Origin: Phycisphaerales bacterium
Lineage (GTDB): Bacteria; Planctomycetota; Phycisphaerae; Phycisphaerales; UBA1924
Assembly: GCA_020847535.1 (NCBI GenBank)
Contig: JADLBU010000011.1
Span: 1 to 64,000, forward strand
DNA: 64,000 nucleotides
Direction of reading: 5' to 3'
The position numbers were made by a program, and so were the translations under genes. A model generated the notes under the pieces. That model did not search any database, had not been told where the DNA came from, and saw only the letters and a list, made by a program, of their open reading frames with translations. Position 1 is the first letter of the stretch, and every line of letters starts with the position of its first letter. Of this stretch, positions 1-62,242 are shown one piece after another.

Positions 1-77
1 CGAGCGGGCGCACCAGGAGCGGCCGAGCGGGCGCACCAGGAGCGGCCGAGCGGGCGCACCAGGAGCGGCCGAGCGGG
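1..77. repeat. 23-bp tandem repeat, 3.3 copies, cut by window edge
   Basis: Three exact head-to-tail copies of a 23-bp GC-rich unit (it contains GCACCAGGAGCGG) at 1-23, 24-46 and 47-69, plus the first 8 bases of a fourth copy. The array reaches the window edge, so its full length is unknown. It lies downstream of the leftward operon that ends at 123. No spacers are present, so it is not a CRISPR. Confidence 0.9.
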
Positions 78-48555: not shown

Positions 48556-48701
48556 TTCCGGAAAAGATCAGTCGAAGGGAACGCATCGCTGTGTATCGTC
48601 GCTGGTTGAAACGTCAGATGCATAAGCTGACGCGCCGTCTCTCCAGGAAAGACCCCGAGTCCGCTCCTACGAAGGAACGCTATCGCGGGTGGAGCCTATG
48701 A
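48552..48701 (+). CDS. Small basic protein
   Basis: 49 aa, starting in a 4-bp overlap and ending in a 4-bp overlap with the GHKL gene. Very rich in Arg and Lys (SRRERIAVYRRWLKRQ, KLTRRLSRK), so nucleic-acid or membrane binding is possible. Found here by translation of the gap between its neighbours. Confidence 0.55.
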   Translation: MIPEKISRRERIAVYRRWLKRQMHKLTRRLSRKDPESAPTKERYRGWSL

Positions 48702-49741
48702 AACCATTCACCCTCGCCATCTCACCAAACTACGTTCAGCACTGGGGCCTCTGGGAAGCTGTGCGCGAGGTGTACCAGAACGCGCTGGACGAAGGCGAAG
48801 CCGGGGCCAGCACCTCGATCCGTCACGCCAAGGGCGTTCTCTCCGTCTCAACGAACCGTGGACGCCTGACGCCACAGACCCTGCTCCTGGGCCAGACTAC
48901 GAAGACCGGCACATCCGCCCGTGGTCAGTTCGGCGAAGGCTACAAGCTCGCTCTCCTGGTGCTCACGCGGCTCGGCCATCCCGTCACCATCTACAACGGT
49001 GACGTGGCCTGGGAGCCGAAGATCGAACGAGACGACCACTTCGGGTGCGAGGTTCTACGAATCTACGTTCGCCCGCTAGCGATCAGTGAGGGCGACGGAG
49101 TGACGTTCCGCATCGGCGGCGTCAGTGATGAGCAGTGGTCGGACATCGACGCCAACATCCATCCCATCACAGATCGTGACGCGATCCTTGAGGGCGAGTC
49201 TCAGCGGGGCCGCATCTATGTCGGTGGCCTGTTCGTTCGCCGCATGGAGAAGTTCCGCTACGGCTACGCCCTGGCTGCGAAGACCCTCCGGCTCGACCGC
49301 GATCGCGGGATGGTCCATGACTTCGACCTGTCGTTGGTCACGTCCCGTCTCTGGACCGATCGGCAAGACAGTCCCGAAGCCTATGCCCTTCTGAAAGAGG
49401 GGGCACCGGACGTTCAGTATCTGACTTCACACGTCACCAAGCAATCTGCGGTCGTGGCAACGGTCGCCCAGCAGTTTGATCGGGAGCACGGTGCGAACAC
49501 CGTTCCGGTGTCCACTCAGGCCGAAGTCGAACGGGCCACCGCGTCCGGTCGCCCCTGGGCACTCGTTCCCGAGACACTGAAGAACGTCGTCGCGCAGAGT
49601 CGTGACATCTACATCCCGATGAAGGGGATGACCGCCCTCGAACGACTCCGTAAGTTCAACGAGTCGTACAGGTGGCGATTCACTGACGAGATGCGCCGTG
49701 ACATGGAAGACATACTCACCCAAATGGAGGGAACCGCATGA
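48698..49741 (+). CDS. GHKL-type ATPase-domain protein
   Basis: 347 aa. The N-terminal 200 residues show the Bergerat fold signs: an N-box helix EVYQNALDEG (Glu24, Asn28), a degenerate DxGxG site (TNRGRL near 52-57), and the GQFGEGYKLALL lid near 76-87. Glu24/Asn28 are the catalytic and Mg-binding residues in this class. Related proteins are gyrase B, Top6B, Hsp90, MutL and MORC. The C-terminal part (about 200-347) is not recognised as a transducer. Could partner the Top6A-like protein at 55098, but is on the opposite strand. Confidence 0.7.
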   Translation: MKPFTLAISPNYVQHWGLWEAVREVYQNALDEGEAGASTSIRHAKGVLSVSTNRGRLTPQTLLLGQTTKTGTSARGQFGEGYKLALLVLTRLGHPVTIYNGDVAWEPKIERDDHFGCEVLRIYVRPLAISEGDGVTFRIGGVSDEQWSDIDANIHPITDRDAILEGESQRGRIYVGGLFVRRMEKFRYGYALAAKTLRLDRDRGMVHDFDLSLVTSRLWTDRQDSPEAYALLKEGAPDVQYLTSHVTKQSAVVATVAQQFDREHGANTVPVSTQAEVERATASGRPWALVPETLKNVVAQSRDIYIPMKGMTALERLRKFNESYRWRFTDEMRRDMEDILTQMEGTA

Positions 49742-51488: not shown

Positions 51489-51692
51489 GTGACGGCGGCT
51501 CAACGGGAAAGCTGGGAACTTCTGCTCCGGCTCGATAGCGAGGGGCAGGGGCTCACCCAGGAGGAGATTGCATTCGTGGCCGGGCTGATCGACAACGACC
51601 GCGAAGGCAGGCTGCACGTCTCTGAGATGAACCGGATCTCCGCCCTCTTCAAACTCCGAGTCGAGGATTGTGAAGAGGAGGAGATAGATTGA
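51489..51692 (+). CDS. Small hypothetical protein, EF-hand-like end
   Basis: 67 aa from the GTG at 51489 with GGAGAAG upstream; an upstream TTG (51426) in frame would lengthen it. Residues around LIDNDREGRLHVSEMN resemble a single calcium-binding loop (D-x-D-x-E-G). The C-terminus is acidic (EDCEEEEID). Just upstream of the dockerin-like protein, so a calcium theme is shared. Speculative. Confidence 0.5.
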   Translation: MTAAQRESWELLLRLDSEGQGLTQEEIAFVAGLIDNDREGRLHVSEMNRISALFKLRVEDCEEEEID

Positions 51693-52198
51693 TGCTTGAC
51701 TGCTTTACCGGGTTTTCGTACTACCCGACCGTGGCTGGCCTGGTCATCATCACCAACATCAACCTGGAAAATATGGTCGGCCCCATCTACGATCCCATCG
51801 ATCCACCGACGATCGGCACGACCATCAGGCGCGAAATAGACAACCCACCGACGTATCCGGCTGAGCAACGGTTCTTCTACTACGACGACGAACTGTTCTA
51901 TAAATACTACATCGGCCCGGTCACTGAGTTCGCGACTACGGTTCAGGGACAGTACAACGAACAGACAAGGCTGTTCGTCGCGGAATGGACATCCTACGGC
52001 GGCTTCGGGAAGACGCATGTTGAATGGGCCGGTCCCGCCGACGCCGACATGAACGGCTTCATCAACGGAAACGATCTCGACATCTACCTGCGACTGTTCG
52101 AGAACGGCTGCCAGTGCGCTGACCTGGACGGCAACGGATTCATCACCGGCGACGACTTCGATGACTTTATGACGCTGTTTGAGGAAGGTGGGGGATGA
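51692..52198 (+). CDS. Protein with a C-terminal dockerin-like calcium-binding domain
   Basis: 168 aa, AGGAGGAG upstream. The first ~110 residues are Tyr/Pro-rich with a hydrophobic start (TVAGLVIITN). At 117-130 D-x-D-x-N-x-F-I-N-x-x-D and at 144-155 D-x-D-x-N-x-F-I-T-x-x-D form two EF-hand-type loops with hydrophobic helices after each, the pattern of dockerin-like domains abundant in Planctomycetota. In a phage it could attach to a host surface or mimic a host tail. No clear signal peptide or sorting motif. Confidence 0.75.
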   Translation: MLDCFTGFSYYPTVAGLVIITNINLENMVGPIYDPIDPPTIGTTIRREIDNPPTYPAEQRFFYYDDELFYKYYIGPVTEFATTVQGQYNEQTRLFVAEWTSYGGFGKTHVEWAGPADADMNGFINGNDLDIYLRLFENGCQCADLDGNGFITGDDFDDFMTLFEEGGG

Positions 52199-52392: not shown

Positions 52393-52607
52393 TCGGCTGG
52401 ATTGCCACTATCGCAACCTTCCTGGGAGTCTACCTCACTGGCAGTAATACCCTCTGGTGCTGGCCTGTCTACCTGCTCTCGAACGTGCTCTGGATCGTGT
52501 ACGGACTGACTGAACAACAGATGCCGCTGATCGCCATGCACTCTATGTTGATGGTGCTGAACATCGCGGCCTGGAACAAATGGAGGAACTGCCGTGATCG
52601 AGACTGA
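52389..52607 (+). CDS. Small three-span membrane protein (SWEET/PnuC-like size and pattern)
   Basis: 72 aa. Hydrophobic segments at about 3-17, 24-40 and 48-62, with a W-P-V-Y-L-L-S-N-V-L-W motif in the middle one. Phages often encode such half-transporter-like membrane proteins. No transport function can be claimed. Confidence 0.6.
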   Translation: MIGWIATIATFLGVYLTGSNTLWCWPVYLLSNVLWIVYGLTEQQMPLIAMHSMLMVLNIAAWNKWRNCRDRD

Positions 52608-53334
52608 ATGTCCCCGCAAGACCGGCCTGAAGAACGGGCTCCGCCAACTGACGACGGCGCAGCTTCACCGCGTGCTCTCCTGGCCGCACCCGATGGTCAC
52701 GGACACCTACAACTACGACAACGGCTGCTACTGCCCGCTTGCCATCGGCGCTGAAATTGACAAGCGGGCAAACTTGCGGACAGCAACACACGATGTTGTA
52801 TTCTGCGAACTCCAGGCGATGGGCTTCAAGGTCAACAACACTCGTGGCATCAAGGGCGACTTCTACACGACCGAACGAGAGCGTGACTTGAAGATCGCCC
52901 TTCAGGAAGTCATCCTCGAACGCGGCGTGCGTCAGTTGATTCCCATTGTCGCGGCCACATTCGCCGGGCGTCTCCTGATGCTCCAGCGCCGCTGCGACAG
53001 CAAGTACCCGAACGCATGGTGTGTGCCGGGCGGCAAGATCGAAGAAGGCGAGTCCGTGGTCCAGTGCGCCAAGCGGGAGTTCTGCGAGGAGACTGGCATC
53101 ACCGCGACGATCGAGCCGCTGGATGAGATCGACCTGGGCGACACGTTCCGTTTCGCCATCTATCAGGCTCAGTTCATGGGGGAATTTCCGCCCAGTGTTC
53201 GCATCGAGCAGGACAAGTTCCAGGGCTTCGGATGGTTCACCACCGAGGAACTGATTACCATCGCACCCATGCAACCAGCCGTGTTCATCATGGAGCGGCT
53301 GGGCTACGGCCCGCCAATCGCTGAGGAGAAATAG
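52594..53334 (+). CDS. Nudix hydrolase with N-terminal extension
   Basis: 246 aa, GTG with GGAGG upstream. The Nudix box near 146-168 is complete: G-x5-E-x7-REFCEETGI. The ~110-residue N-terminal region (NGLRQLTTAQLHRVLSWPHP, YNYDNGCYCPLAIG) is not recognised. Such enzymes cleave nucleoside diphosphates linked to another group. It forms a pair with the next Nudix gene. Confidence 0.88.
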   Translation: MIETECPRKTGLKNGLRQLTTAQLHRVLSWPHPMVTDTYNYDNGCYCPLAIGAEIDKRANLRTATHDVVFCELQAMGFKVNNTRGIKGDFYTTERERDLKIALQEVILERGVRQLIPIVAATFAGRLLMLQRRCDSKYPNAWCVPGGKIEEGESVVQCAKREFCEETGITATIEPLDEIDLGDTFRFAIYQAQFMGEFPPSVRIEQDKFQGFGWFTTEELITIAPMQPAVFIMERLGYGPPIAEEK

Positions 53335-53336
53335 GA

Positions 53337-53915
53337 ATGACCGCTTACCATCCAACTCGACATCTCGGCGTGGACGCTTGCATTTGCAGCAAGTGCTCCA
53401 ACCTGATGTCGATACACGGACCGGGCTGGAAATGCCCTCAGTGTGGAAGCAGCGTAGGGCTGCCCAAAGAGGCTCCACCGCCCCGCCTCCAGATGGTCGT
53501 GGGCCTCGCGTTCAACGAGCGGAAGACGCTCGTGGCAATGGTCCACAAGCAGAAGGGTCCGCCCTGCGTCATCGGCAACTGGAACGGTGTCGGCGGGAAG
53601 ATCGAAAAGCACGAGATGGCTGTGGCTGCCATGACTCGCGAGTTCCACGAAGAGACGGGTGTGCTCATTCCTACACACCACTGGCACAACTTCGCCAAGC
53701 TCGTCGCGCCCACCTACGACTTGTTCTTCTTCTCCGTCTTCACGGACGAAGTGATGGGTGTTCGCACTCCTGTCGGCGGCGAACCGATCAGGCTCTGGGA
53801 CACCGGAGCGATCGTCCGCGAGCGGCACCTGATGGACAACATCCGCTGGATGATCCCCTTCTTGCTCGACGCCGATCTCGTCCACGACCTGGGAACACTC
53901 TACCTCCGTCGATAG
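53337..53915 (+). CDS. Nudix hydrolase with N-terminal zinc ribbon
   Basis: 192 aa, starting 2 bp after the previous gene. CSKC near 17-20 and CPQC near 33-36 form a zinc ribbon, and the Nudix box GGKIEKHEMAVAAMTREFHEETGV lies near 86-109 (split here by its catalytic Glu pattern). A zinc ribbon plus Nudix is the arrangement of NADH pyrophosphatase-type enzymes, but this protein is shorter. Substrate unknown. Confidence 0.85.
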   Translation: MTAYHPTRHLGVDACICSKCSNLMSIHGPGWKCPQCGSSVGLPKEAPPPRLQMVVGLAFNERKTLVAMVHKQKGPPCVIGNWNGVGGKIEKHEMAVAAMTREFHEETGVLIPTHHWHNFAKLVAPTYDLFFFSVFTDEVMGVRTPVGGEPIRLWDTGAIVRERHLMDNIRWMIPFLLDADLVHDLGTLYLRR

Positions 53916-54230: not shown

Positions 54231-55031
54231 ATGAACCAGACAGTTCTGGGGGTGCTCGGCACCCTGGCCACCCTTGGCACCATCGGGGCGCTCGCTCCTG
54301 ACCGCCAGCCTGCCGCTGCGCCACCCCAGGCCGCTGCCCCTGTCCTGACCCCTCAGCAGCAGGAAGCCCTCCGGCAGGCGTTCAACGCTCCGCCCGGGAG
54401 CACGGTCGAGGTGGAGATCAGCAACAAGGACGGCGGCACCGTCAAGACTCGCAACGAAGGGCGCGGCGTCGGCGCTGGAGCCGTGGCCGAAGGCGACAAG
54501 CTGGACCAGAAGTTCGACGGCTCCCCGCCCAGGGTCGGGCTCGGCGCTGACGGCTCGCAGACGGCGGAGGGCGGCGGCTCGGACTCCGAACAGAAGGCGT
54601 CGGCCCTGAAGATCCCGCCGCTCCCCTGGCAGAATCCGATGTTCTGGCTGGGGCTCGTTTGCCTTGGCGGGTCGGCGTTCTGCTTCTACCGGCTCCTGCG
54701 ACGCCCTGCCGTGATCCTCGCGGCCTCGGGCGTCGGTCTGCTGGCCGCTGCCTTCTATCCGGTCATCCTGCTGTACACCGCTGCGGCTGTGCTGCTGATG
54801 ATCGTCGGCCCGTACATCTGGGCCGAGTTCCAGAAGAAGAAGCACGAAGGCGAATCGAACTCGAAGCGGGAAGCCCTCCGCGCCGTCGTCGCTGGTGTCG
54901 AGCACCGCGACGTGCCGCCCGAGATGCAGCGGGTGGTCAAGGCCGCGATCGCCAAGGAAGCGGACGGCAGCGACAAGGCCGTGATCGATGAAGTGAAGCG
55001 GGACGACAAGGTGGGCAAGTACGCGGATTGA
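54231..55031 (+). CDS. Membrane protein with long extracytoplasmic region
   Basis: 266 aa. A weak signal-like start (TVLGVLGTLATLGTIGALA) is followed by a ~100-residue Pro/Gly/Ala-rich region, then three hydrophobic helices at about 135-195 and a Lys/Glu-rich C-terminus. It is the last gene of the rightward block, right before a bidirectional-looking terminator. Possible lysis or superinfection role; not recognised. Confidence 0.55.
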   Translation: MNQTVLGVLGTLATLGTIGALAPDRQPAAAPPQAAAPVLTPQQQEALRQAFNAPPGSTVEVEISNKDGGTVKTRNEGRGVGAGAVAEGDKLDQKFDGSPPRVGLGADGSQTAEGGGSDSEQKASALKIPPLPWQNPMFWLGLVCLGGSAFCFYRLLRRPAVILAASGVGLLAAAFYPVILLYTAAAVLLMIVGPYIWAEFQKKKHEGESNSKREALRAVVAGVEHRDVPPEMQRVVKAAIAKEADGSDKAVIDEVKRDDKVGKYAD

Positions 55032-55060
55032 CGGAGGGGTGAGCGATCGCCTCCTCTGCG

Positions 55061-55096
55061 GCGGGCCGTGCCTCTCGGGGTGCGGCCTGCTGTGTT
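55061..55096. terminator. Bidirectional terminator between convergent genes
   Basis: A GC-rich imperfect stem (GCGGGCCG with GCGGCCTGC, loop TCTC) closes the 66-bp gap between the rightward gene ending at 55031 and the leftward gene ending at 55098. T-rich bases (TTTCT) follow on the + side. Confidence 0.6.
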
Positions 55097-55097
55097 T

Positions 55098-56165
55098 CTA
55101 CTCCTCTTCCTTCAGGAGCCGCTGCGCGAGGTTGAGCCGTCCCTGGGCCTCAGCGTAGGCCGATGAGTTCGGCTTCGCACGCTTCATGTCGGCCTTCGCT
55201 TCCTTGACCTGGGCGGTCAGGATGTCCTTGATCGGCTTGCGGTCAAGCTGGTGCGAAGCGGCGATCACGCGGGTGCGGTTCGCCTCCTGCTGCTCCACCG
55301 CCGCGTCCCACCGCTCCTGATCCTTGCACGAATCGATCTCCGCCTGGATCAGGGCGATCAGCGTGCGCGGCTCCAGGGCGTCAAGCTCCCACGACTCGTC
55401 ACCATGCTCGGCGACGTACCCCTGGGCGCGAGCGTCGGTCATCTTGGCCGGGTTCGGCGGAGGATTGTACTCGCGGACCTGATCCATCGTCAGCGCGATA
55501 CGACGCACCTCAATGTCCTTGGGCTCCCAGTCCGGATCGAACGCGGGCTCGTCCTTGAAGCGGATGTTGCTGAACCCGTTCAGCCGGTCACGGATGTCGC
55601 GGCTCATGTCCACGCCGGACGGGTCGTGGTCGCCCAGGTGGATCACCACGGCCTGCCGGTCGCCCCGGCGCGCGGCGCGGTTGAGGCGGATCGCGGCGGA
55701 CCACATCTCGCTCTGGCTGGTGTAGCCACGGCACGAGAAGTAGGGCACGTCGTTGCGGGGGCACACGGCCTGGAGCACGCCCACGAGCGCGTCCTTCTCG
55801 ATCCACACCTCAACATAGTGGTCCTGGTCGGACCACAGGTCTTCGGCGTACCAGTGCGCCGTGTCGCGGAGGAAGTTCGCCGGGTCCGCCCAGTGGCTGC
55901 GGCCACGCAGGTTGCGGGTGCGATCCTCAATCGCCTCCCAACTGATCTCGCCCGCCATGCGAGCATCGTTGAGGATCGACCCGAGACGCTTGTACTCGGT
56001 CTGGTTGTTGGGAATCCAGCCCTTGGATACGAAGACGTAGTAGACCTGACGCAGCGTCAGGTCCAGGCCCTGCTGCTGGTAGTCCCTGATGATCTCGTTG
56101 GCTCGGCGGATGATCTCCTTGCTCGACGCCGAGAACTTACGGGGCTGATAGCAGATGAGCGTCAT
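55098..56165 (-). CDS. Topoisomerase VI A / Spo11-like protein
   Basis: 355 aa with AGGGACGG upstream. The N-terminal winged-helix shows T37-L-R39-Q-V-Y42-Y43, matching the T-x-R-x-x-Y-Y catalytic tyrosine motif. The TOPRIM half follows: Glu123 in VEVWIEKDAL, SCRGYTSQSEMW near 144-155, and DHDPSGVD (D179, D181) near 179-186. These are the key residues of Top6A and Spo11. The last ~100 residues form a Lys/Glu-rich helical tail. Top6A needs a GHKL B subunit; the phage GHKL ATPase at 48698 is a candidate partner. A stand-alone 'mini-A' type is the alternative. Confidence 0.82.
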   Translation of the reverse strand: MTLICYQPRKFSASSKEIIRRANEIIRDYQQQGLDLTLRQVYYVFVSKGWIPNNQTEYKRLGSILNDARMAGEISWEAIEDRTRNLRGRSHWADPANFLRDTAHWYAEDLWSDQDHYVEVWIEKDALVGVLQAVCPRNDVPYFSCRGYTSQSEMWSAAIRLNRAARRGDRQAVVIHLGDHDPSGVDMSRDIRDRLNGFSNIRFKDEPAFDPDWEPKDIEVRRIALTMDQVREYNPPPNPAKMTDARAQGYVAEHGDESWELDALEPRTLIALIQAEIDSCKDQERWDAAVEQQEANRTRVIAASHQLDRKPIKDILTAQVKEAKADMKRAKPNSSAYAEAQGRLNLAQRLLKEEE

Positions 56166-56859
56166 TGTTCACCGTCCCTGGGAAAACCATCCACGCACGA
56201 GAGTGGCCCTTGGCTCGGCAGTCCGCTGCCCATGCCTTGGGATCATCGAGCGTGTTGAGGTTGCGAATGCGTTCCGGGAGTCCGAAGAGGCGATCAGGCA
56301 CGAGACTAAGGTCTTGGACCTTGTAGTATTCCTCGGTGATGATCGTCGGGAACTTCTGCCAGTGGCGGAACCCGCGATGCCACCACGCTTCGGTGTATAC
56401 GTGAGGGTGGATGGACTCCACCACGTCCACGACCGGGTGGGGATCGCAGACCGCGAGGGCATCGAAGCCGATCGAACAGCCCTCGAATGGCGACATCACG
56501 TCCCGCAGCAACTGCCAGGAGAGCTTGCAGCCGGGCGACAGGAAGTGCGGCGCACGAACGTAGACGATGGGCTCGACACCCCGGGCCAGCATGTCATCAA
56601 CCATCTTGCGCCAGCCGAGCAGGTCGATGCCGATCGACGCGCCGTCGAAGTACAGGTGCGAACCCGGCATCCGGAAGATGAAGAACTTCGCCCCGGCGTC
56701 GATCGCCTTGGAGGTGTACCGGCGATGGAACTCCTCCCACCCCTGCGTGTCGATGAACTCCTGCTGGGCGGGGTTCGAGTCGCCCAGGAGGATCATCTGG
56801 CCGTCGCGGGACGGTATGTGGCTGGGAGTGGCGACGCGGACGGAGGGGTTGGTTTTCAT
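56137..56859 (-). CDS. Putative TIM-barrel (glycoside-hydrolase-like) protein
   Basis: 240 aa; start coupled to the preceding gene by a 4-bp overlap, end overlapping the Top6A-like gene by 29 bp. The sequence alternates strands and helices (AKFFIFRMPG, GIDLLGWRKMVDDMLARGVEPIVYV, IGFDALAVCDPHP, then TIITEEYY) as in TIM-barrel glycosidases, with Glu and Asp at strand ends that could be catalytic. No firm family. A candidate for host-cell-wall or polysaccharide action. Confidence 0.45.
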   Translation of the reverse strand: MKTNPSVRVATPSHIPSRDGQMILLGDSNPAQQEFIDTQGWEEFHRRYTSKAIDAGAKFFIFRMPGSHLYFDGASIGIDLLGWRKMVDDMLARGVEPIVYVRAPHFLSPGCKLSWQLLRDVMSPFEGCSIGFDALAVCDPHPVVDVVESIHPHVYTEAWWHRGFRHWQKFPTIITEEYYKVQDLSLVPDRLFGLPERIRNLNTLDDPKAWAADCRAKGHSRAWMVFPGTVNNDAHLLSAP

Positions 56860-59392: not shown

Positions 59393-60136
59393 CTACCATT
59401 CGAGCCAGAGCTTTTCCAGTGCTTCGGCCTGTATTTGTCGGGTACGTTCCTTGCCCACCCCGATAACTTTACCCACGTCTTCCAGGATCATCGTGTCCGG
59501 CTTCAGGAAGCGAAGCTCGATCACTGTCCGCTCAATGTCGGTGAGCCCCGCGCCGTGCATGACTTCTCGCAGGTCCACCATGTCGCCCAGGGCGAGCATG
59601 GGATCGGGCGCGGTGGACTCGAACGCGAGATTCATGGCCCTCCGCTCGCTCTGCTGAAGGCAGCGGATGACCTGGTTGATGATCCCCCGGCAGGCGTAGG
59701 TGGAGAACTTGTATCCCCGGTCCACCTCGAACCGCTCGACGGCACGGACGAGCCGCATGTTGCCTTCGCACACCAGGTCATCGAACTCGGGATGGTTCTT
59801 GCCGACGAAGCGAACGACCATCGCCAGGACCAGGGCGAGGTTGTATTCGACCAGCATCCGCTTGCGTTCATTGGCGACACGCAACCACCTCGATGCCTCG
59901 GCGTCGCTCGACGCGACCACGACATACATCCAGCGTGCGTAGTTGTACTGGAGGAACAGGGTTCGCTCCTGGTCCGCCGTCAACAGATGCGAACGCCTGG
60001 GCTTGCGAACCTCGGACGCGAAGTACCACGAGATGTCCGGCTGAGGGATCGCGGGAGGATCGGAGAAGATGCGCCGCTCGGCGTCAGGGCGGTGGAACTC
60101 GGGGGAGTCGATGAACTCCTGACTTATTGTCGGCAT
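59393..60136 (-). CDS. RNA polymerase sigma factor (phage-encoded)
   Basis: 247 aa from the ATG at 60136 with GAGGG upstream; a TTG at 60217 would extend it. Region 2 at about 88-162 has the -10-recognition pattern (EYNLALVLAMVVRF, FDDLVCEGNMRLVRAVERFE, YKFSTYACRGIINQ), and region 4 at about 196-247 has the -35 helix-turn-helix (DIERTVIELRF, VGVGKERTRQIQAEALEKL). It should redirect host polymerase to phage promoters. The N-terminal 87 residues are unfamiliar. Confidence 0.88.
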   Translation of the reverse strand: MPTISQEFIDSPEFHRPDAERRIFSDPPAIPQPDISWYFASEVRKPRRSHLLTADQERTLFLQYNYARWMYVVVASSDAEASRWLRVANERKRMLVEYNLALVLAMVVRFVGKNHPEFDDLVCEGNMRLVRAVERFEVDRGYKFSTYACRGIINQVIRCLQQSERRAMNLAFESTAPDPMLALGDMVDLREVMHGAGLTDIERTVIELRFLKPDTMILEDVGKVIGVGKERTRQIQAEALEKLWLEW

Positions 60137-60419
60137 GGCGTCCCTCGGTGCGGCGGTCAGGTGCGGATGTAGAAGAACACGGGGTGAGGGAATCCCCGCG
60201 TCTGCTTTCGAGTTCAAGCAACGCCTTGATGTAGGCTAAGCAGGCCCGCTTCTCTTCAGTGGAACAGAGGGCGATCCCGCAGTGTGGGTCAGGTATCCCC
60301 ATGCCCCACTCCTGCATCAGCAGGTTGATGCCGATGTGGTAAGCGTTCGCACCACTCGTCTTCACGAAGACGTTGTAGTGCTCGTCGCGGTAGAGATATT
60401 GGCCGGGGCGGAAGGTCAA
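60084..60419 (-). CDS. Hypothetical protein upstream of sigma, overlapping it
   Basis: 111 aa from a TTG that overlaps the preceding stop (GGAG site upstream). The first 65 residues are natural-looking (YRDEHYNVFVKTSGANAYHIGINLL, GIPDPHCGIALCSTEEKRACL); the last 40 are Ser/Arg-rich and overlap the sigma start by 53 bp, so the true end may be shorter or frameshifted. Function unknown. Confidence 0.5.
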   Translation of the reverse strand: MTFRPGQYLYRDEHYNVFVKTSGANAYHIGINLLMQEWGMGIPDPHCGIALCSTEEKRACLAYIKALLELESRRGDSLTPCSSTSAPDRRTEGRHADNKSGVHRLPRVPPP

Positions 60420-61203: not shown

Positions 61204-61436
61204 TGCTTGCCCTCCCATTCCGCCACCAGCGTGTTCAGCTTCTCCTTGCCATCCACCTCGACACCGATCGCGGCCAGCCCGTCTACGAACGCTTTCAGTT
61301 GTCGGCCCTTCTCCAGCCGCTTCTTCTTGCCGTCCCAGTGAAGTGCGCTATGACCGAGCAGCAGACCATCCGCCGTGAAGATTCCGATAGTGCTTACAAA
61401 GCCCTCCGTGATGCCGATGGCGATGGAGATTTTCAT
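61200..61436 (-). CDS. Hypothetical 78-aa protein
   Basis: Coupled to the recombinase stop by 4 bp. First 40 residues are hydrophobic and alternate (ISIAIGITEGFVSTIGIF), more beta-like than membrane-spanning; the second half is a charged helix (KKKRLEKGRQLKAFVDGLA). Not recognised. Confidence 0.55.
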   Translation of the reverse strand: MKISIAIGITEGFVSTIGIFTADGLLLGHSALHWDGKKKRLEKGRQLKAFVDGLAAIGVEVDGKEKLNTLVAEWEGKQ

Positions 61437-62242
61437 TCCGATGTCCGCTCCCTCGGGTGGTACTTCTCGATCGTAGCCCGCATCGCCCGCGTATCAAGTT
61501 TCGTGTAGCCCTGGGTGGTGACGACACTGGCGTGGCCCATCATCTCCTGGATGGCGCGGATGTCCGCCCCACCCGTGAGCATGTGGGTGGCGAAGCTATG
61601 CCGAAGCTGGTGGGGGTGGGCATCGATGCCGGCGCGCTCGGCGGCAGCGTCCACGATCCGGTAGACCTGGAAGCGGGAGAGGTTGAGTTGCCACACGCCG
61701 ACCACCGGACCGAGGATGTCCGCTACCCACTTCGAGCACGGCACGATCCGGGCGTTGCCGCCCTTGCCGAGCACGCGAATCATGCCGTCGCCCAGAGGCT
61801 TGACGGACGCGATCTCACTGGCGCGCAGGCCGGAGCCGTAGAGCAGTTCGAGCACGAGCCGGTGGAGCGTGTTCGTGGTGCCCTCAATCATCCGCTGGAT
61901 GTCCGCCTGGGCGATCGGCTTGGGCAGGGACTGAGGGATCTTCGGCCCCTCGACGTTCCCCGTCTCGGGGAAGCCGTGGAACGCCAGGTAGCGGCGAACG
62001 GTTGCGAGCCGCCGCTTGATCGTCGTCGGTGCCGCGTCCAGCCACGACTGGGCGCGGATGAAGCTCCTGATGTCCGCCTGGGTGAGCATGTGCGGGATGT
62101 CCGCCTTGTTGCCCAGGACGGTGCGGAGCACGTCCAGGTCGGCACGATAGGCCGAGAGCGTGTTCTTGGACAGCCCGCACTCGACGCGGCAGTGCGTGAG
62201 GAAGGAATCGACGGGGGAGGTTGTGAGGGTGGCGGTGGTCAC
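61433..62242 (-). CDS. Tyrosine recombinase (XerC/D-like integrase)
   Basis: 269 aa, GTG with GGAGGG upstream. The N-terminal SAM-like core-binding domain precedes the catalytic domain: Arg140 (GLRASEI), Lys160 (LGKGG), HQLRHSF (His211, Arg214), GH near 236-237 and Tyr246 (TQGYT). Short, like XerC/D and some phage integrases. Whether it inserts the phage, resolves dimers or is used in another way is not shown: no att site or excisionase is identified. Confidence 0.9.
   Translation of the reverse strand: MTTATLTTSPVDSFLTHCRVECGLSKNTLSAYRADLDVLRTVLGNKADIPHMLTQADIRSFIRAQSWLDAAPTTIKRRLATVRRYLAFHGFPETGNVEGPKIPQSLPKPIAQADIQRMIEGTTNTLHRLVLELLYGSGLRASEIASVKPLGDGMIRVLGKGGNARIVPCSKWVADILGPVVGVWQLNLSRFQVYRIVDAAAERAGIDAHPHQLRHSFATHMLTGGADIRAIQEMMGHASVVTTQGYTKLDTRAMRATIEKYHPRERTSE

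Follow-up and report, generated by a model that had tools for sequence, protein, structure and literature searches.

Type IIB topoisomerases use a GHKL ATPase subunit. In Top6A, the cleaving subunit of Topo VI, each tyrosine acts together with the metal site in the TOPRIM domain of the other subunit; a structure with bound, uncleaved DNA still shows the two about 10 Å apart (PMC13040014). The M. mazei protein carries R102, Y106, E202, D254/D256 and a fourth acid, E342, and R102 and E342 together form a clasp (PMC13040014). Spo11, which is eukaryotic, works with Rec102/Rec104. Topo VIII is, according to reviews, a type IIB enzyme found on mobile elements, and it has a GHKL B part that is usually in the same polypeptide. 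Mini-A proteins are truncated Top6A homologues of archaeoviruses and bacteriophages (PMC7614492), a definition that we take from reviews; for these proteins, PMC7614492 and PMC8185306 cite Takahashi et al. 2020. A protein of Pseudomonas phage NP1 serves as the review's illustration of Mini-A (PMC7614492). Mini-A function is described as unknown in a review (PMC8084294), and no Mini-A biochemistry or partner was reported in the literature searched.

Here we analyse a 64,000-nucleotide window, positions 1 to 64,000 of contig JADLBU010000011.1, which contains a gene that almost certainly encodes a Mini-A, a relative of the Topo VI cleaving subunit and of Spo11. The best overall explanation, to which we assign a probability of roughly 0.6, is that its product would be a stand-alone Spo11-like tyrosine cleaver serving phage replication or recombination.

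A well-preserved member of the Mini-A family

The gene is the following:

55098 to 56165, minus strand: Mini-A (Top6A/Spo11-like) gene, 355 aa, identified by phrog_6247, conservation and an AlphaFold model

The ORF runs uninterrupted from ATG to stop over 355 codons, and a codon-usage gene caller scored it as coding and placed it with the better-scoring genes around it. An earlier note on this DNA had called the product Spo11/Top6A-like, of the mini-A kind, and had read in it a T-x-R-x-x-YY motif (37-43), a TOPRIM E123 and DHDP (179-182). All of these are where they were placed: T37-L-R39-Q-V-Y42-Y43, E123 and D179-H-D181-P182. In an alignment of 60 relatives, T37, R39, Y43, E123, D179, D181 and E260 were invariant (60/60); position 42 is Tyr in 55 and Phe in 5. 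This confirms 55098-56165 as a real gene with these motifs.

The protein matched phrog_6247 (DNA topoisomerase) with E 1e-106 in PHROGs, and gp49 of Pseudomonas phage NP1 belongs to the same family (E 1.2e-137). A direct tblastn to NP1 gave E 8e-72 at 43.5% identity. Of the phage records, 76 encode relatives, Haloarcula virus HCIV-1 among them; relatives also lie in 237 viral-contig stretches and, across many phyla, on 41 prokaryote contigs. Given the phrog_6247 match, the 76 phage records with relatives and the 60/60 conservation, the catalytic motifs are not due to chance. With these counts and a published family, the earlier statement that such proteins are rare in phages fails in absolute terms, and the gene is a well-preserved new member of an already described family. 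The mini-A assignment itself was borne out by the fold (see below), the catalytic residues and the PHROG shared with the NP1 protein.

Residue by residue, R39 is the clasp-like Arg, and E123, D179 and D181 are the TOPRIM acids. Y43 is the likelier nucleophile, because Y42 is replaced by Phe in 5 of 60 relatives. E260 is likely the fourth acid, equated with M. mazei E342 from its spacing and invariance. NP1 gp49 has the same residues, a similar core length and is likewise phage-encoded, whereas the product studied here differs from NP1 and the rest of the Mini-A set in its length and its tail. Members of the aligned set, 290-355 aa long, are shorter than Top6A; at 355 aa, this protein is longer than most (median near 301-303), and the tail past residue about 330 is almost unique to it. 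In a short tree search with poorly supported inner nodes, it had no close relative, the best identity being 57%.

The predicted fold matches Top6A and Spo11 over both domains

An AlphaFold2 model built on the alignment of relatives had a pLDDT of 88.9 and a pTM of 0.77. It consists of a winged helix and a TOPRIM domain followed by a C-terminal helical tail. The earlier note had proposed comparing a predicted structure with Top6A and Spo11, and in our VIA structure comparison Top6A chains took ranks 1-6. The match to 1d3y (Top6A) covered model 11-280, with Z 11.2 and rmsd 4.1 over 213 residues. For the Spo11 core complex 8urq, Z was 8.7 over 202 residues, within a Spo11 range of Z 8.2-8.7. Both sets of matches span the winged-helix and TOPRIM domains alike. 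With Top6A (1d3y/2zbk/2q2e), the protein thus shares a winged helix bearing R-x-x-x-Y, a TOPRIM domain bearing E/D-x-D, a likely fourth acid and the fold over model 11-280. It differs in having no segment N-terminal to the winged helix, whose start near residue 11 corresponds to about residue 71 of 1d3y, no linked Top6B and no significant sequence match in the PDB. With Spo11 (8urq/8uru core complex), it shares the two-domain fold and the catalytic residues, although at Z scores below those of Top6A.

The relation to Top6A is remote, since neither Foldseek nor sequence profiles gave a significant PDB match: Foldseek with the model returned no PDB match below E 0.001, Top6A surfacing only in the VIA comparison, and PDB searches with the protein sequence and then with its profile found no relevant match. 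The product had no Pfam match at all, and so none at cut-off to PF04406/PF21180, and a viral structure library gave nothing informative. Two independent signs nevertheless agree with the Top6A relation. In the 60 members, the Pfam family most often matched below threshold was TP6A_N (9 of 60, best E 0.014). In addition, an hhalign comparison with the Top6A of the host clade, itself weak (P 0.055, probability 1%), placed R39/Y43, E123 and D179/D181 on R111/Y115, E215 and D267/D269 of that protein.

The comparison also bears on whether the gene encodes an inert or host-directed TOPRIM protein, which would bind DNA, attack host DNA or act in JetD/Gabija-related counter-defence. JetD and MksG do match the TOPRIM part of the model (Z about 9), and some relatives are annotated merely as DNA-binding proteins. 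However, the matches to JetD, MksG and other TOPRIM proteins are limited to about 107-279 of the model, PADLOC (including its JetD profile) had no match for the product, and the Tyr, the Arg and every acid are invariant. We consider such a protein improbable. The narrower identification as a Wadjet/Gabija nuclease was rejected on the PADLOC result and the TOPRIM-limited match; what the protein has in common with the JetD/MksG/Gabija nucleases is the TOPRIM domain. One measure that the earlier note had named as counting against its assignment, a Tyr42/43 lying far from its own TOPRIM, was badly posed, because the Top6A tyrosine acts with the partner's TOPRIM.

Local gene context and the phage element

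Two features flank the gene:

55057 to 55094, plus strand: terminator-like stem of 17 pairs from a consensus scan, between convergent genes
56137 to 56859, minus strand: upstream gene of 240 aa without a family match

A rightward gene ends at 55031, convergent with the Mini-A gene, and the stem lies between them, in agreement with the convergent terminator described before. Terminator-like sites numbered 4, against 2.4 ± 1.6 expected, so that the terminator reading rests on this single long stem. The upstream gene overlaps the start of the Mini-A gene by 29 bp. It had been labelled a sugar hydrolase, for which Pfam, PHROGs, PADLOC and NCBIfam gave no support.

The contig is that of a phage, with genes for terminase, portal, major head and tape-measure proteins, and for a DNA polymerase A, a primase and helicases on its plus strand. 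The Mini-A gene lies outside the replication module (about 33-51 kb of the window, on the opposite strand), in a leftward arm that also holds a sigma factor, a DUF3850 protein and a tyrosine recombinase. The sigma factor (59393-60217, minus strand) is a phage-encoded sigma-70 family protein with regions 2 and 4, and the recombinase (61433-62242, minus strand) resembles XerC/XerD and phage integrases below NCBIfam cut-offs. Elsewhere in the window, a class II glutamine amidotransferase-like protein stands beside an amidoligase (PF12224; 311-1186 and 1214-2698, minus strand), and two Nudix-domain genes adjoin each other (52594-53334 and 53337-53915, plus strand). The product of 51689-52198 (plus strand) ends in two dockerin-like D-x-N/D-x-N-G-F repeats, identified by eye; Planctomycetota proteins often carry such repeats. 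The contig, 64,182 bp in all, begins and ends (window 1-77 and the contig end) in copies of one 23-bp tandem repeat, CGAGCGGGCGCACCAGGAGCGGC. This suggests that the genome was broken at the repeat during assembly; the repeat ends are not proof of completeness.

The phage contig was binned with a 4.9-Mb bacterial genome that has complete Topo VI A and B genes on other contigs. The Top6A family is near-universal among the host and its relatives of the same order (54/61 genomes), and Mini-A was absent from the other 60, leaving 1 of 61 genomes with it. Derivation of Mini-A from the host's own Top6A was rejected on this distribution and on a profile similarity that is far too weak.

A phage GHKL ATPase, an unlikely dedicated B subunit

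Topo VIII carries its GHKL B part; the Mini-A ORF has none. The window does contain a separate ATPase:

48689 to 49741, plus strand: stand-alone GHKL ATPase (phrog_6077), a candidate trans B-type partner unsupported by co-occurrence

Its product has the motifs R-E-x-x-Q-N-x-x-D and G-Q-F-G-E-G-Y-K; in the alignment, the N-box and lid are conserved and a DxGxG motif is not evident. Its annotations elsewhere are "hypothetical", "histidine kinase-like ATPase" and "RIIA lysis inhibitor". The model was confident (pLDDT 92.4), and its top Foldseek match was Top6B (1mx0, E 9e-6). One could propose a split topoisomerase in which Mini-A is the A part, the phage GHKL protein or the host Top6B is the trans ATPase, and strand passage is ATP-driven. 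The Top6B match and the Topo VI genes of the bin and its relatives speak for this. Against it, the GHKL model is about equally like Hsp90, GyrB and phage T6 topo II (VIA Z about 10-11), and co-occurrence is minimal: of 49 Mini-A records, one has a member of the GHKL family, by a weak match, and of 50 records with that family, one has Mini-A, many of the viral contigs being fragments. Moreover, Pseudomonas and Salmonella are among the hosts of Mini-A phages, a search of bacterial control genomes, E. coli and B. subtilis among them, recovered no Top6B, and Mini-A occurs in 0 of 60 host relatives. We regard a split enzyme as very unlikely, and a hybrid phage-host type IIB topoisomerase in which either protein drives Mini-A in trans would be a longer shot still. 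Despite the true GHKL motifs and model of 48689-49741, the two co-occurrence counts argue against it as a dedicated B subunit.

The Pfam HATPase_c model had no match in any of the 49 Mini-A records, NP1 included, but it also misses the phage's own GHKL protein, such that divergent GHKL partners elsewhere could escape it. When genes within 10 kb were clustered, using a crude gene caller, no gene recurred in more than 10 of about 80 Mini-A loci. The simplest reading is that Mini-A would act without a dedicated B subunit.

Proposed activity and role

What the analysis shows is a gene, its family, a Top6A-like predicted fold, conserved residues and no HATPase_c match in 49 Mini-A records; a dimer, a cleavage reaction and a biological role are our inferences. 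Mini-A would represent the winged-helix and TOPRIM half of a type IIB enzyme, lacking the N-terminal extension seen in Top6A and carrying an additional C-terminal helical tail. In a putative homodimer, Y43 would attack the DNA backbone at the Mg2+ site of the partner (E123/D179/D181), leaving a covalent 5'-tyrosyl break, and R39 and E260 may be the counterpart of the Arg-Glu clasp by which Top6A holds its tyrosine back. Tyrosine cleavage is probably intact.

In annotated relatives, Mini-A lies mostly near replication or recombination genes. Its neighbours in NP1 are ThyX, an ATP-dependent ligase and Sak4; those in other relatives are ThyX and RNR, RNR and a photolyase, Cas4 and a DNA polymerase, an excisionase-like gene and a DNA polymerase, MazG, HNH, or a DNA polymerase. 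Because of these neighbours, phage DNA replication or recombination is the best guess for its role, in which Mini-A might be a Spo11-like breaker or an ATP-independent topoisomerase with no dedicated GHKL subunit. The position of the present gene outside the replication module of its own phage speaks against this reading. That it has such a role without a B subunit is tentative, at a little under even odds. Any of the roles suggested in the earlier note, namely in replication topology, packaging or recombination, may apply.

Spo11-like breaking and ATP-independent relaxation are inseparable by sequence. Under the latter, Mini-A would relax phage DNA as it replicates, acting as a topoisomerase or nickase, and would make no programmed breaks. 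The replication genes near it in annotated relatives are in keeping with this, and there is a precedent in Topo VIII, one of which relaxes DNA without ATP while another only cleaves (PMC7614492). In Top6A, however, strand passage is coupled to the B subunit (PMC13040014), and we find relaxation rather doubtful. A stand-alone Spo11-like cleaver remains our preferred reading.

Significance

The interest of this gene rests on the biochemistry of the Mini-A family and is moderate. With no recurrent neighbour in about 80 loci and no HATPase_c in 49 records, the family makes it a testable question whether a lone Top6A/Spo11 core cuts DNA, a question that bears on the origin of Spo11. The present member, whose phage shares a bin with a bacterium possessing a full Topo VI, provides a useful pairing for hybrid complexes.
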